Of a stretch of DNA of 64,000 nt, positions 3,374 to 38,821 are shown one piece after another. The stretch's first letter is position 1, and each line of letters begins with the position of its first letter. This DNA comes from Conyzicola lurida (GTDB lineage: Bacteria; Actinomycetota; Actinomycetes; Actinomycetales; Microbacteriaceae). A program made the translations under genes and the position numbers. The stretch covers positions 434,001-498,000 of the forward strand of contig NZ_JACHMJ010000001.1 in NCBI RefSeq assembly GCF_014204935.1, read 5' to 3'. The notes under the pieces are model-generated. The model made no database searches. It had not been told where the DNA came from and was given only the letters and a program-made list of their open reading frames with translations.

Positions 3374-3422
3374 GGTTTCGACAGGCTCAACCCGCCATAG
3401 GCGGATTGAGTCTGTCGAAATC
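3374..3422. repeat. Inverted-repeat element with TTTCGACAGGCTCAA arms
   Basis: Arm TTTCGACAGGCTCAA (3376-3390) faces TTGAGTCTGTCGAAA (3406-3420), one mismatch, and an inner CGCC/GGCG pair extends the stem. It lies between the convergent tctA and siderophore-reductase genes, where it can act as a terminator for both. The same arm sequence recurs at 36969-36989 and, remarkably, inside a gene at 26148-26305, so this is a dispersed REP-like family. Confidence 0.75.
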
Positions 3423-33010: not shown

Positions 33011-36000
33011 GTGTGGCGTGCCGAGAGAACTGAAACAGACTTCCCAGGAGAAGACGAGCTGGGTGCTGCCCACGCTCGCCGCCAAGTCACGGCGCCTCAC
33101 GCGCTGAGTCTGGGGGACCCCAGCTTCGAGGCGGGAAACGTGGCCGAACCGGTCTGGACCGCCTGGCGCGGTGAACTGGCGAGCGTCGGCGGCCGGTCGC
33201 CGCTGCTGCACTTCGTCGACTCGCCCCGCACCCGGATCGAGCTCAGCACCACGCACCCCGGCGGTCTCGCCCAGTTCATCACCGGCAAGACCACCCTGCT
33301 CTCCAGCCTGATCCGCGACGACCTCGCCCTGCGCAGCGCCAAGGTCGCCGCCGGCCTCATCGCCTCCAAGGGGCTCGAGCTCGCGACCGCCCGCGGCATC
33401 GACTCCGTACACCTCGGCATCGGTATCGCCGAATGGCAGTTCGAGGGCACCGAGTTCCGCGCCCCCGTTCTGCTGCGTCCGCTCGCGATCCGCCGCCACG
33501 GCCGCGACTTCGAGGTCAAGCTCAAGGGCCCGGCGTTCCTCAACCCCGAACTCGCCCGCGCCCTCGAAGCCCAATTCGGCCTCGGCCTCGACGCCCAGGC
33601 GTTCGTCGCGCTCACCGACGACGACGGCACCTTCAAGCCCAACCCCGTGATCGACCGCCTGCGCGGACTCACCAGCCACCTCGAGTGGTTCAACGTCAGC
33701 CCGCGTCTCGTCGTGTCGTCCTTCGTGGATGTCGCGACCACCATGGTCGCGGACGCCGCCGACCTCGAGCACCCCGTGCTCGACGCCATCGCCGGCAACC
33801 CCGCCGCCAAGTGGAGCGTGCAGGAGTCGTTCGTCGCCGTCGAGGCCCAGAGCGCCGACGTGCGGTCGCCGCAGACCGACACGCTGCTGCTCGACGCCGA
33901 CGCCGAGCAGGAGAACGTGATCGCCCAGATCGCCGCGGGCAACTCCCTCGTCGTGAAGACCCTGCCGGGAACCGGCGGCACGCAGACGATCGTCAACGCC
34001 ATCGGCAGCCTCGTCTCGCAGAACAAGCGCGTCCTCGTGGTCAGCGCCCGTCGCGCCTCGCTGCACGGCATCGCCCAGCGTCTCGCCGACATCGGGCTGC
34101 CCGGCGTCGCCGTCGCGCCGCGCACGCTCCGTCGCGACATCATCCGGTCCATCTCGCGCAACGAGAAGTCCAAGGCCCCCAAGGTCGAAGAGGTGGATGA
34201 CGCCCTGGTGCGCCTGCGCAAGGTGCTGCTCGACTACCGCGGGGCACTCGGCAAGCCCGACCCCGTGCTCGGCATCTCGGTGTTGGAGTGCGTGACCGAG
34301 CTGTCGCGCCTCGCCCTGCTGCCCAACCCGCCGGCCACCACGGCCCGCCTCTCGCGCTCCTCGGTCGAGTCGCTCGCCCACGACCGCCAGCGCGCCGCCG
34401 AGACCATGGTGTCGGCCGCGCAGCTCGGCGAGTTCCGCTACGGCCCGGGCGACTCGCCCTGGTACGGCGCGCAGTTCCCGACCAGCGACGACGCCGTGCG
34501 CGCCCACGAGCTCGCGAAGAAGCTGTCGAACGACACGCTGCCCCGCCTGCTCGAGCGTGCCAACGCTGTCATCAGCTCGACCCACATGCGCCCGTACGCC
34601 ACGATCCACGAGCTCGGCGTCTACCTGCGGCTCCTCACCGACCTACGCGACACGCTCGACAAGTTCTTGCCCGTGGTGTTCGACCGCCCCATCGGGGAAC
34701 TGGTCACCGCGACATCCGCCCGCAAAGACAGCCCGAACATGTCGGGTGCCAACCGCCGCCGCCTGAAGAAGCTCGCCCGCGAGTATGTGCGCCCCGGCGT
34801 GCACGTGAGCGACATGAACGAGGCGCTCCTGCGCATCCAGCAGCAACGTGTGCTCTGGCAGCGTTTTGTGACCGAGGGTGTCTCGCCCGAGGTGCCCGTG
34901 GGCATCGCCGACGTGCGCGTCGCGCTGCAGCAGGTCGAGCAGGATCTCTCCACGCTCGACGAGCCGCTCGGCTTCGACACGCGCGAGACCGCTCTCTCGA
35001 ACCAGCCGATCACGGCGCTGCTCGACGACCTGCGCGAGCTCGCCGCCGACTCCGACGTGCTGCACAACCTGCAGGAGCGCACGACGCTCATGAAGACGCT
35101 GGCCGCTCTCGAGCTCGACCCCCTGATCACCGACCTGGCCCAGCGCCACGTGCCGGAGGAGCAGGTGGGCGCCGAGCTCGAGCTCGCCTGGTGGCAGTCC
35201 GCGCTCGAGTCGCTGCTCGCCGCCGACCGTGCCCTGCTCGGTGCGAATACCCCCGTGCTCGACCGTCTCGAGGCGGACTTCCGTCTCGTCGACGAGGCGC
35301 ACGCCTCGGGCAGCGCGCAGCTGCTCGCGTGGCAGCTCGCCGAGAACTGGAAGATCGGGCTTGTCGACTGGCCCGACGAGGGCAGCCTGCTGAAGAAGCT
35401 TCTGCTGCGCCCGTCGCTCGACGCGTTCGACCTGCAGACCACCGCGCCCCACCTGTCGCGCACCGTCGCGCCCGTGTGGCTCGCCTCGCCGTACGAGGTG
35501 TCGACGATCGCCGACTCCCTGCCGTTCGACACCGTGATCCTCGTCGACGCCGGCGCCACGACCATCGCCGAGAACGCCGGAGCGATCCGCCGCGCCAAGC
35601 AGGTCGTCGCGTTCGGCGACCCGGTCACGCAGACACCCGCCGCCTTCACCGTGGCGATCGACGAGCACCAGGACCCTTCGAAGCCCGCCGACGAAGAAGC
35701 GCTCGACGCCCTGCACGAGCAGTCGGCGTTGTCGCGGCTCGGCAACCTGCTGCCGACGTTCTCGCTCACGCGTAGCTACCGTCCCGGCGGCGAAGACCTC
35801 GCCGAGCTGGTGAACCGCCGCTTCTACGGCGGCCGCATCCAGTCGCTGCCGTGGGCCGGAAGCTTCCTCGGCCACGGCTCGCTCGCGATGGACTTCGTGG
35901 TCGACGGCCACGGCCTCCCCGACAGCTACACGGGCGCCGTCGAGAGTGTCGACGCCGAGGTGAACCGGGTCGTCGAACTCGTGCTCGCCCACGCCGCCGA

Positions 36001-36760
36001 GCGCTCCCGCGAGTCGCTCATGGTCATCACCGCGAGCCCGCTCCACGCCGTGCGCGTGCAGCAGGCAGTGCTCACGGCCGTCACGACGCGCCCCGAGCTC
36101 AACGACTTCATCATCGGCGACCGCCCCGAACCATTCGCCGTCATGACGATCGACCAGGCCGTCGCCGAGAGTCGCGACCGCGTCATCTTCTCGATCGGCT
36201 TCGGCCGCACTCCGCACGGTCGCGTGCTGTCGAACTTCGGCGTGCTCGGCCAGCCCGGCGGAGAGCGCCTGCTCGCCGTCGCGATGACCCGCGCCCGCCG
36301 CTCGATGGTCATCGTCACCTGCTTCGAGCCAGCCGACATCGACGACTCGCGCATGAGCCACGGTGCGATCGCCCTCGCGGAGATCCTCGCCGAGGTCGAC
36401 GCGCGTCTCGCCGACGTGCCGCTGCCCGACGACAGCGACCCGATGCTCGTCGACCTGGCCCGCCGCCTCGAGAACCACGGCGTCAACGTGGCCCTCGGAC
36501 ACCGCGGCAAGCTCGGCCTCGTCGCCTCCCACGGCGGCATCTGCGTCTCGGTGGAGACCGACGCGATCCTCGGCCAGAGCACGCTACGCGAGTCGCTGCG
36601 CCTGCGCCCCGAGCTGCTGCGCCGCCTCGGCTGGCACTACCTGCGCGTGCACGCCTTCGAACTGTTCAGCGACCCCGACGCGGTCGCGGGCCACGTGTGC
36701 CACATGCTCGGTATCGACACGAGCCCGCACACCGAGCCGATCACGATCATCCAGCAGTAG
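33011..36760 (+). CDS. SF1 helicase-like protein with C-terminal MTES_1575-type nuclease fold and degenerate ATPase motifs
   Basis: A large protein (up to 1249 residues) of the Upf1/Dna2-like superfamily-1 group. The Walker A region reads LPGTGGTQTI (about 318-327): the invariant Lys of GTGKT is Gly. The Walker B region reads VILVDAGAT (about 842-850): the catalytic Glu is Ala. Motif III (GDPVTQTP) and motif VI (AMTRARRSMVIVT) remain. The C-terminus (about 1150-1249, GVNVALGHRGKLGL...VSVETDA...LGWHYLRVHAFELF) resembles the PD-(D/E)xK-like MTES_1575 domain. I predict nucleic-acid binding with doubtful ATPase activity. The start is uncertain: GTG at 33011 gives the longest form, while GTG at 33140 has GAGGCGGG before it and begins near the conserved region. 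The tiny gene behind it overlaps by one base. Confidence 0.8.
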   Translation: MWRAERTETDFPGEDELGAAHARRQVTAPHALSLGDPSFEAGNVAEPVWTAWRGELASVGGRSPLLHFVDSPRTRIELSTTHPGGLAQFITGKTTLLSSLIRDDLALRSAKVAAGLIASKGLELATARGIDSVHLGIGIAEWQFEGTEFRAPVLLRPLAIRRHGRDFEVKLKGPAFLNPELARALEAQFGLGLDAQAFVALTDDDGTFKPNPVIDRLRGLTSHLEWFNVSPRLVVSSFVDVATTMVADAADLEHPVLDAIAGNPAAKWSVQESFVAVEAQSADVRSPQTDTLLLDADAEQENVIAQIAAGNSLVVKTLPGTGGTQTIVNAIGSLVSQNKRVLVVSARRASLHGIAQRLADIGLPGVAVAPRTLRRDIIRSISRNEKSKAPKVEEVDDALVRLRKVLLDYRGALGKPDPVLGISVLECVTELSRLALLPNPPATTARLSRSSVESLAHDRQRAAETMVSAAQLGEFRYGPGDSPWYGAQFPTSDDAVRAHELAKKLSNDTLPRLLERANAVISSTHMRPYATIHELGVYLRLLTDLRDTLDKFLPVVFDRPIGELVTATSARKDSPNMSGANRRRLKKLAREYVRPGVHVSDMNEALLRIQQQRVLWQRFVTEGVSPEVPVGIADVRVALQQVEQDLSTLDEPLGFDTRETALSNQPITALLDDLRELAADSDVLHNLQERTTLMKTLAALELDPLITDLAQRHVPEEQVGAELELAWWQSALESLLAADRALLGANTPVLDRLEADFRLVDEAHASGSAQLLAWQLAENWKIGLVDWPDEGSLLKKLLLRPSLDAFDLQTTAPHLSRTVAPVWLASPYEVSTIADSLPFDTVILVDAGATTIAENAGAIRRAKQVVAFGDPVTQTPAAFTVAIDEHQDPSKPADEEALDALHEQSALSRLGNLLPTFSLTRSYRPGGEDLAELVNRRFYGGRIQSLPWAGSFLGHGSLAMDFVVDGHGLPDSYTGAVESVDAEVNRVVELVLAHAAERSRESLMVITASPLHAVRVQQAVLTAVTTRPELNDFIIGDRPEPFAVMTIDQAVAESRDRVIFSIGFGRTPHGRVLSNFGVLGQPGGERLLAVAMTRARRSMVIVTCFEPADIDDSRMSHGAIALAEILAEVDARLADVPLPDDSDPMLVDLARRLENHGVNVALGHRGKLGLVASHGGICVSVETDAILGQSTLRESLRLRPELLRRLGWHYLRVHAFELFSDPDAVAGHVCHMLGIDTSPHTEPITIIQQ

Positions 36761-36921
36761 TGTCCCCGAACGACGAACAGAAGCCGCGCCCCAAGCGCCG
36801 CCGGGTCACGACCGAACCCCCGCCCGGAAGCGACCCGCACCCGCAGCCCGAGGAGCCCCGTTCCTCCGGCACGGAGAACGACGCCCGCCTCAAGGCCGAC
36901 AAGCCGCCCCACTGGGGCTAG
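36760..36921 (+). CDS. Small conserved hydrophilic protein (53 residues)
   Basis: A Pro/Arg/Glu-rich, probably disordered protein starting at a GTG that overlaps the last base of the preceding stop codon. The C-terminus ENDARLKADKPPHWG resembles a tail (E-N-D-x-R-L-x-x-D-x-P-P-H-W) that I know from short actinobacterial proteins, and this supports it as a real gene despite its size. Function unknown. Translational coupling to the helicase-like protein suggests a shared role. Confidence 0.7.
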   Translation: MSPNDEQKPRPKRRRVTTEPPPGSDPHPQPEEPRSSGTENDARLKADKPPHWG

Positions 36922-36968: not shown

Positions 36969-36989
36969 GGGTTGAGCCTGTCGAAACCC
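36969..36989. repeat. Dispersed repeat copy (GGTTGAGCCTGTCGAAACC)
   Basis: This is a single arm of the element seen as a full hairpin at 3374-3422, in the opposite orientation. Confidence 0.65.
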
Positions 36990-37352: not shown

Positions 37353-37826
37353 CTAGCCGACGACGTCGCTGTGCTTGCCCTTGGGATCGGAGATCGCCGA
37401 CGAGGACGCCGAACCGGAAGCGATCAGGTTCCTGATCTCGATCAGCAGCTCGACCTCGCTCGGCTCCTTGGCGGGGTCTTCGACGCCGGCCGCGATCTCT
37501 TCCTTCTTCTTCTGGAAGGACAGCTTCTTCAGGTAGTTGATCGGGATGATCAGCGCGAAGTACACGACCGCGGCGACCAGGACGAACTGGATCACGGCGG
37601 CGATGACGACACCGAACTTGATGATGGCCTCGCCGCCGTTGGTGGTGGGGATGGCGACGTCGAGCGCGTCGTTGAGGCTCTCGGCGTTGAACAGCGCGCC
37701 GATCGCGGGGTTGAAGACACTGTTTACGATCGCGTTGACGATCGCGGTGAATGCGGCGCCGATGACGACCGCGACGGCCAGATCGATCACGTTTCCGCGG
37801 AGGATGAACTCCTTGAAACCCTTCAT
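37353..37826 (-). CDS. mscL: Large-conductance mechanosensitive channel MscL
   Basis: A 157-residue channel that opens under high membrane tension to release solutes during hypo-osmotic shock; it works as a pentamer in the cell membrane. MscL landmarks are the N-terminal MKGFKEFILRGNVIDLAVAV with the first pore helix, AAFTAIVNAIV, and the second helix FGVVIAAVIQFVLVAAVVYF before a charged cytoplasmic tail. The C-terminus is about 20 residues longer than in E. coli and Ser/Asp-rich. AAGGAG precedes the ATG. Confidence 0.97.
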   Translation of the reverse strand: MKGFKEFILRGNVIDLAVAVVIGAAFTAIVNAIVNSVFNPAIGALFNAESLNDALDVAIPTTNGGEAIIKFGVVIAAVIQFVLVAAVVYFALIIPINYLKKLSFQKKKEEIAAGVEDPAKEPSEVELLIEIRNLIASGSASSSAISDPKGKHSDVVG

Positions 37827-38242: not shown

Positions 38243-38821
38243 CTAGAAGGTGGTGATGCCGCCTGGCGTGACAACGCCGTTGACTCGCTGATCGTGCACT
38301 TCGCTGGGCACGCTGTCGACAAGTTCATTGTCGAAGATCACAGCATAGACCGGAGGGCAGCGTTCCATGCTGCCGAGAGTCTTGTCGAAGTACCCGCGTC
38401 CCCAGCCCATGCGCATTCCCGTGCGGTCGACGGTGGCCGCCGGCACGATGATGAGGTCGACGTCGTTGATGGCGATCGGGCCCAGGACCTCGGTCGTCGG
38501 CGTCGGCATGCCGAACACGTCCTCGTCCTCGTCCTTGCCGTCATAGGGCGCCCAGTCGAGCAGCCCGTCTTCGCGCGAGATGGGGAGGAGCACACGAATG
38601 CCCTGATCACAGGCCCAGTGCAGGAACTCGCGGGTGCTCGGTTCGTCGGGCGTCGACAGGTACGCGGCGACCGAGGTGACGCCCATGCCGGTCGTCAGCG
38701 ATTCGAGATGGCGGGTAACGGCCTCGGTCGCGCGTTCGCGTTCGACGGACGTCACGGTGCGGCGTCGCTCTCGCAACTCGGCACGCAGTGCCCGCTTTTC
38801 ATGGGTGATGTCATCGGACAT
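38243..38821 (-). CDS. 5-formyltetrahydrofolate cyclo-ligase
   Basis: A 192-residue enzyme that converts 5-formyl-THF to 5,10-methenyl-THF with ATP, a folate salvage step. The family motifs are KRALRAELRERRR at the N-terminus and the nucleotide-binding GMRMGWGRGYFDKTL near residue 135. It is divergent from galU, with 38 bases between the start codons, as in mycobacteria (Rv0992c/Rv0993). It is followed by the fmdB-like gene on the same strand. Confidence 0.94.
   Translation of the reverse strand: MSDDITHEKRALRAELRERRRTVTSVERERATEAVTRHLESLTTGMGVTSVAAYLSTPDEPSTREFLHWACDQGIRVLLPISREDGLLDWAPYDGKDEDEDVFGMPTPTTEVLGPIAINDVDLIIVPAATVDRTGMRMGWGRGYFDKTLGSMERCPPVYAVIFDNELVDSVPSEVHDQRVNGVVTPGGITTF

Follow-up and report, generated by a model that had tools for sequence, protein, structure and literature searches.

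A Lys-less, Upf1-like relative of helicase-nucleases as a candidate single-stranded nucleic-acid clamp in Microbacteriaceae and their order

The helicase-nuclease MTES_1575 of Microbacterium testaceum is a protein of about 2100 residues which combines a superfamily 1 (SF1) helicase and a Vsr-type restriction endonuclease with extra domains, namely two winged helix-turn-helix domains and HEPN fusions, and is described as active (PMC3710099). Here we report on a protein of the same family type and from the same bacterial family, the 1249-residue product of a gene lying in a 64,000-nucleotide stretch of Conyzicola lurida (contig NZ_JACHMJ010000001.1, positions 434,001 to 498,000; 'the window' below). 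It is short and lacks the catalytic residues of MTES_1575, the source of the Pfam nuclease model. On balance, and judging from sequence, structural models and analogy, we favour the view that this Lys-less, order-wide core protein is a non-hydrolysing clamp or scaffold for single-stranded nucleic acid, derived from a disarmed ATPase-nuclease.

A precedent is provided by RecC and AddB, two SF1 folds without the motifs that read single-stranded DNA (ssDNA). Inactivated helicase domains of AddB and RecC recognise Chi at the place where a helicase would track ssDNA (PMC4824097), and the dead nuclease domain of RecC forms a hoop for ssDNA (PMC1185551). These are, however, UvrD-type (SF1A) subunits accompanied by an active motor, whereas the window protein is Upf1-type and was inactivated separately; its origin in the Upf1-like branch would make it a parallel case. 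Dead helicases turned into DNA readers are known mainly from RecC and AddB, and a second, unrelated SF1 branch would thus be added, one disarmed at least four times within a single bacterial order while remaining a near-universal core gene. AddAB chains do appear among the Foldseek matches of a fused relative (4cej_A, E 1.3e-6).

By whole-protein profiles the nearest families are ProA, PDC-S37 and Hhe. The first two are the closest, and canonical relatives of the window protein share their domain order, with a DUF4011-like stretch, the SF1 halves and a MTES_1575-type nuclease. The window protein itself scores 289 bits with the NCBIfam ProA profile NF058533 (best over residues 607-1230; cut-off 1500 bits, not reached), 300 bits with the PADLOC profile PDC-S37 (best over residues 631-1226) and 109 bits with NCBIfam Hhe, a DUF4011 anti-phage protein (NF042953; cut-off 2000), of which it lacks the active-site residues. 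Compared with ProA it falls about 650 residues short of the model, which has 1903 positions, has lost the Lys, the Walker B Asp and a nuclease Asp, and is core and syntenic rather than sporadic. The helicase halves match AAA_11 and AAA_12 with scores below the Pfam cut-offs, and the DUF4011 cut-off is passed by the canonical relatives L079 and L137. The same genome also encodes a canonical ProA of 1939 residues (L141; G000:C1, about 1438808-1444624; L141:1309-7125), which reaches 1668 bits against the cut-off of 1500 and retains Lys, DE and the other motifs. In the open-licence literature of PubMed Central, no paper was recognised as describing the Lys-less family or the PPHW tail presented below.

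Predicted fold, nucleotide site and nuclease-like tail

The AlphaFold2 (AF2) model of residues 46-1240 has a predicted local distance difference test score (pLDDT) of 89.1 and a predicted template-modelling score (pTM) of 0.78, and is Upf1-like, as is the model of a relative from a reduced genome (pLDDT 87.6, pTM 0.77). The best VIA-align match is the IGHMBP2-RNA complex (4b3g_B; Z 20.6, 507 aligned residues, root-mean-square deviation 3.9), ahead of Dna2-DNA (5ean_A, Z 20.2), UPF1 (2xzp, Z 19.0), Sen1 (8rao_O, Z 18.7) and Aquarius (4pj3, Z 18.1), with sequence identities of merely 14-18%. UvrD chains give Z 17-18 over a shorter stretch, the best matches being Upf1-like and not UvrD-like; the comparison covers PDB chains ranked by Foldseek, and the non-appearance of other folds is uninformative. 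Phmmer returned no match among PDB sequences at E up to 1, and Upf1-like relatives were reached by structure comparison only. The model and the Z scores point to an SF1 Upf1-like fold, and these matches suggest that a DNA- or RNA-binding SF1 fold has been kept although sequence profiles hardly detect it. In the model, the architecture is an N-terminal barrel or stalk, two RecA-like domains interrupted by a helical insert of considerable length, and a C-terminal Vsr-like fold.

IGHMBP2, UPF1, Dna2, Senataxin/Sen1 and Aquarius retain the ATPase residues, of which the window protein lacks the P-loop Lys and the DE of box II. A preliminary description, made from the sequence alone, had proposed an Upf1-like SF1 protein with a MTES_1575 C-terminus. 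The fold is supported by AF2; the protein is not simply MTES_1575-like, but belongs to an order-wide core family with repeated loss of the Lys. The same description had correctly reported an intact frame of 3.7 kb, a Gly at the Lys position of the P-loop (GTGGTQ) and the maintenance of motifs III and VI, which are present as GDPVTQTP and TRAR. Its reading of VDAG as a DE box with Glu changed to Ala was in the wrong register. In 159 of 160 aligned rows, canonical ones included, D870 of motif III lies 30 residues beyond the invariant D840; the remaining row has a spacing of 28. Box II is consequently aligned without gaps, giving Asp to Val (845) plus Glu to Asp (846). Where an active ATPase would carry the P-loop Lys and DE in box II, this protein has Gly and V-D.

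The absence of the P-loop Lys extends throughout the sampled Microbacteriaceae and to most of their relatives. The Lys at position 323 is found in 11 of 155 distinct aligned rows, all 11 with DE, and DE occurs in none of the 144 Lys-less rows. (The 155 rows exclude the duplicates L227-L231, which are still part of the 160-row spacing count; fragments and paralogues L002, L003, L007, L009, L099, L107, L139, L141, L143, L234 and L246-L254 are omitted from row counts.) The 144 Lys-less rows carry Gly (47), Ala (24), Arg (13), Gln (12), Val (12), Ser (11) or Thr (8), and more rarely Tyr (5), Leu (4), Pro (4), Ile (2), Asn (1) or His (1). The congeners G001-G005 have the same P-loop except for Ser at the Lys position in G003. 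None of the 63 Microbacteriaceae rows has the Lys, nor does any of 80 named loci counted apart (L145-L224; Gly 72, Ala 6, Ser 2). The homologue survey proposed in the preliminary description therefore came out as expected, with a Lys-less P-loop throughout the sampled Microbacteriaceae and Lys plus DE in the outgroups, and the close homologues with canonical motifs that would have contradicted it were sought in vain in these rows and loci. A local mutation or sequencing error is ruled out by the Lys-less P-loop of the congeners, family rows and named loci.

The 56 Microbacteriaceae rows from non-reduced genomes show zero entropy at L318-G322 and T324-T326 (median column 0.96), with only Gly (45), Ser (5), Ala (4) or Leu (2) at 323. 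D846, G869, D870, Q874, R924, R1055, D1056 and T1093-R1096 are invariant in them, and the Walker B Asp column is Val, Ala, Leu or Ile in all 56. The Gln of their motif III-like stretch, at 874, stands one past the canonical Gln column 873, which holds Thr or Ile. In the 81 other Lys-less rows, the P-loop and motif columns frozen in Microbacteriaceae drift far more, and the seven rows from reduced Microbacteriaceae genomes depart further at 323 (Tyr in five, Val, Ile). The kept P-loop shell and the near-invariant motif IV and VI residues argue that the Microbacteriaceae site is not rotting; it looks, from these alignments, as if it had been rebuilt and then frozen in a state that lacks the pair of residues on which hydrolysis depends most. 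In G020, at 0.9 Mb the smallest of the sampled family genomes, the gene (L226) persists with a degraded P-loop, TTPGAQVTQA, and one TGA within the match; its tail was not found.

The C-terminal tail of the window protein is altered as well. Gly 1169 (36515-36517) stands in the place of the first nuclease Asp, while E1182 and D1184 (36554-36562) and the GW are retained, in agreement with the earlier remark that one acidic residue was missing. The Pfam model REase_MTES_1575 gives 20.2 bits, under its gathering score of 38.2, which the canonical L079 (70.7) and L137 (121.5) pass. Every Lys row (11 of 11) has acidic residues at all three columns 1169, 1182 and 1184, versus 27 of 144 Lys-less rows; the window protein reads G-E-D there. 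Asp 1184 (36560-36562) is present in 155/155 rows, even where other acidic residues have been lost.

Descent, selection and distribution

A maximum-likelihood tree of 85 ingroup rows was built with the motif columns removed and rooted on eight longer canonical paralogues including L141, all of which keep GPPGTGKS and DEAS; it comes from a quick LG+G4 search, so that its deep branches are provisional. Rows with Lys and DE lie at its base (L137; L076-L080, L082, L084, L085, L120, L140), and are living canonical relatives of the same core gene. The states Lys and non-Lys are separated by at least four changes, as are DE and non-DE. The non-Lys groups are the f25/f38 clade, L081 with L119, a clade of L138, L086, L083 and L118, and a 62-row clade with all Microbacteriaceae. 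Since the outgroup is canonical, these changes are read as losses of Lys and DE; the Lys-less proteins descend from Lys+DE forms through several separate losses. Lys-less rows are also further from the root (median 1.84 versus 1.03 changes per column for Lys rows), suggesting that release of the catalytic core was accompanied by faster change. In the independent loss of f25 and f38 (L125-L136), Lys became Arg (Thr in L136) and Walker B reads E-D for D-E in most. This natural series of active, half-dead and dead forms, with canonical relatives still living, would make the retained function separable from ATPase and nuclease activity.

The large gene is under purifying selection, as the preliminary description had supposed. 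The ratio of non-synonymous to synonymous substitution rates (dN/dS), a simple NG86 estimate at a third-position GC content (GC3) of 0.93, is 0.145, 0.165, 0.227 and 0.167 against the congeneric L004, L005, L006 and L007, and 0.377 against the more distant L008. The neighbouring mscL gives 0.204, 0.159 and 0.436 against L004, L005 and L008, about the same range as the large gene for the same pairs. The gene is matched in 197 of 199 Microbacteriaceae genomes (177 of 178 high-quality ones; the two without a match are 82% and 94% complete), and is retained in reduced genomes of 0.8-1.5 Mb. Matches are found in 292 of 297 genomes at the level of the order, paralogues included, and in 78 of 246 at that of the class; beyond the order, three family codes (f25, f38 and f45) account for the full-length matches better than 1e-80. 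The nearest named relatives are metagenome-assembled genomes of Microbacteriaceae, together with Salinibacterium, Glaciihabitans, Rhodoglobus, Galbitalea, Curtobacterium and Cryobacterium. A pseudogene is ruled out by this near-universal presence together with the low dN/dS. The earlier suggestion of a scaffold or non-standard ATPase rather than a pseudogene is thus supported by the family-wide Lys-less P-loop, by dN/dS and by the Lys+DE outgroups, as far as sequence data can tell.

The coupled small reading frame

A 53-residue open reading frame (ORF), missed in the preliminary description, follows the large gene. The first base of its GTG start, at 36760, is also the last base of the TAG stop of the latter, and its frame, with the tail GTENDARLKADKPPHWG, ends in KPPHWG. 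A profile of such tails finds a match in 114 of 120 Microbacteriaceae genomes, almost always a single one that adjoins the large gene. Among 242 loci, a set in which some species probably occur twice because two sources were used, the PPH[W/Y/F] tail belongs to a separate downstream ORF in 190, extends the large protein at its C-terminus as a fusion in 21, is absent in 16 and falls at a contig edge in 15; it is adjacent or fused in 211 of the 227 loci away from contig edges. The start codon lies between -15 and +30 of the stop in 163 of the 190 separate small ORFs, and fusion and separation are related by at least 8 changes on the tree. Adjacency, overlap and fusions suggest that the two products are tied together.

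A similar pairing, likened by description and not by sequence, is known from another phylum: core defence hotspot 1 of P. aeruginosa is flanked by a large DUF4011 core gene that neighbours a small, conserved hypothetical gene, an arrangement present in all isolates searched (PMC10250203). In the actinomycete genomes, the order large gene, small ORF, mscL, fthC (and galU) recurs across much of the order and in f38, fthC and galU being named by eye. Class-wide loci L270-L289 of the small protein, at an mscL/FmdB locus, show an acidic/GWGE stretch and a PPHW, PPHY or PPHH tail. The idea that the small ORF exists solely for the large gene is ruled out by this class-wide occurrence.

A clamp or scaffold and its rivals

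The clamp or scaffold that we favour would have arisen from a canonical Upf1-like ATPase-nuclease, vertically inherited, in which catalysis was lost. The protein would have stopped unwinding and cutting and would not translocate, and its retained helicase cleft would clamp single-stranded nucleic acid in the manner of the inactivated domains of AddB and RecC. The small-ORF product would bind the large protein or recruit something to it. In Microbacteriaceae the site may hold a ligand with a structural role or that of a switch, either a backbone phosphate or a nucleotide that is not turned over, because the P-loop shell, R924 and TRAR are near-invariant there. A more elaborate form can be offered only tentatively: a Lys-less, nucleotide-gated clamp whose rebuilt P-loop holds nucleotide or phosphate without turnover, which closes on ssDNA or RNA and, with its PPH[W/Y]-tailed partner, presents the strand to a further machine. 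Such a protein would serve the order as a core housekeeping component, made from an anti-phage helicase-nuclease tamed at the mscL locus and repeatedly disarmed. It would also be a clear example of housekeeping taken up by a gene of defence type, and draws attention to the class-wide small protein with its PPHW/PPHH tail. Among the window neighbours no adjoining motor gene was seen, a RecB/AddA-like partner encoded elsewhere not having been searched for.

Several observations weigh against this picture. Judging from the sequence, there may be room for catalysis by an unusual site. AF2 modelling of a naturally fused relative gives no support to docking of the PPHW tail on the body, the tail having a pLDDT of 56-66. 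The small protein is distributed class-wide, in 129 of 246 genomes, including 12 listed without a match to the large gene (G490, G494, G495, G497-G499, G502, G504, G506-G508, G510). In small-gene loci without the large gene, a MscL-like gene lies just downstream on the opposite strand in 9 of 19 neighbourhoods and a FmdB-like zinc ribbon in 11 of 19 (names by eye; the set leaves out two further neighbourhoods, one a 10-base slip and one from a genome carrying the large gene). As the small ORF thus sits at the same mscL locus in many Actinomycetes without the large gene, the adjacency of the two genes may have begun by chance. The small gene would be the older resident; most likely, the large gene was placed before it later, then coupled and sometimes fused.

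One alternative is a working ATPase or translocase with a rebuilt site, in which another group, for example an Arg or a main-chain contact, replaces Lys and Asp 846 replaces Glu. The invariance of the remaining P-loop, D846, Q874, R924 and TRAR in the 56 Microbacteriaceae rows would fit it, as would the conservative nature of Glu to Asp at 846, seen without the Walker B Asp in 100 of the 144 Lys-less rows. We nevertheless find it unlikely, since the Lys position accepts 13 other residues across the family, the Walker B Asp gives way to Val, Ala, Leu or Ile in all 56, and in sister lineages even motif III and the glycines of the P-loop have disappeared. Nor does a role in defence appear probable, be it an anti-phage protein like the paralogue ProA that acts by binding and not cutting, or a regulator of the active ProA paralogue. 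ProA and PDC-S37 do give the best family profiles, and a ProA above its curated cut-off is encoded in the same genome; but near-universal presence and synteny set the large gene apart from most defence genes, it persists in genomes of 0.8-1.5 Mb, and a second match is found in at most 33 of 199 family genomes (counted by eye), so that it is independent of the ProA paralogue.

The breadth of the small protein, wider than that of the large one, and its coupling or fusion in most loci could also mean that the PPH-tailed protein holds the active role, with the large gene mainly a platform for its expression or localisation. A 1200-residue fold with a dN/dS of about 0.15 and conserved core motifs goes far beyond the needs of a platform, and we give this explanation little credit. 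Finally, the greater root distance of Lys-less rows and the loss of most motifs in several lineages might evoke a relic, left by a domesticated defence gene, that is slowly decaying and no longer has a function. This is largely refuted, and very improbable, given frames that are intact in the listed genomes with few exceptions, dN/dS well under 1, the invariant residues and the retention in reduced genomes.

The features of the locus are collected in the table below.

Table. Coordinates of the large gene, its motifs and its neighbours in the window
Feature	Coordinates	Strand	Basis
Helicase-nuclease-like ORF, 1249 residues, GTG start	33011..36760	+	single open frame and orthologues
N-terminal DUF4011-like stretch, residues 125-173	33383..33529	+	17.8 bits, below cut-off 22.2
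P-loop LPGTGGTQT, Lys position = Gly (33977-33979)	33962..33988	+	sequence and alignment
Box II: V845 in Walker B Asp column, D846 in catalytic Glu column	35543..35548	+	alignment spacing
Motif III-like GDPVTQTP	35615..35638	+	sequence and alignment
Motif IV-like SYR, R924 invariant in 56 Microbacteriaceae rows	35774..35782	+	alignment
Motif VI TRAR	36287..36298	+	sequence and alignment
C-terminal Vsr/MTES_1575-like domain, residues 1143-1231	36437..36703	+	weak Pfam match and alignment
Overlapping stop/start TAGTG, putative translational coupling	36758..36762	+	sequence
Small ORF, 53 residues, basic N-terminus, tail as given in the text, no Pfam match	36760..36921	+	sequence
mscL, convergent conserved neighbour, outside the unit	37353..37826	-	Pfam MscL and synteny
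5-formyltetrahydrofolate cyclo-ligase-like gene (name by eye), conserved neighbour	38243..38821	-	synteny

A promoter scan found nothing, and a terminator scan gave 2 sites against a mean of 1.7 in shuffles. Two exact copies of GGTTGAGCCTGTCGAAACC occur in the window, at 3374-3392 on the minus strand and at 36970-36988 on the plus strand (0.01 expected by shuffling), the second sitting just past the small ORF.

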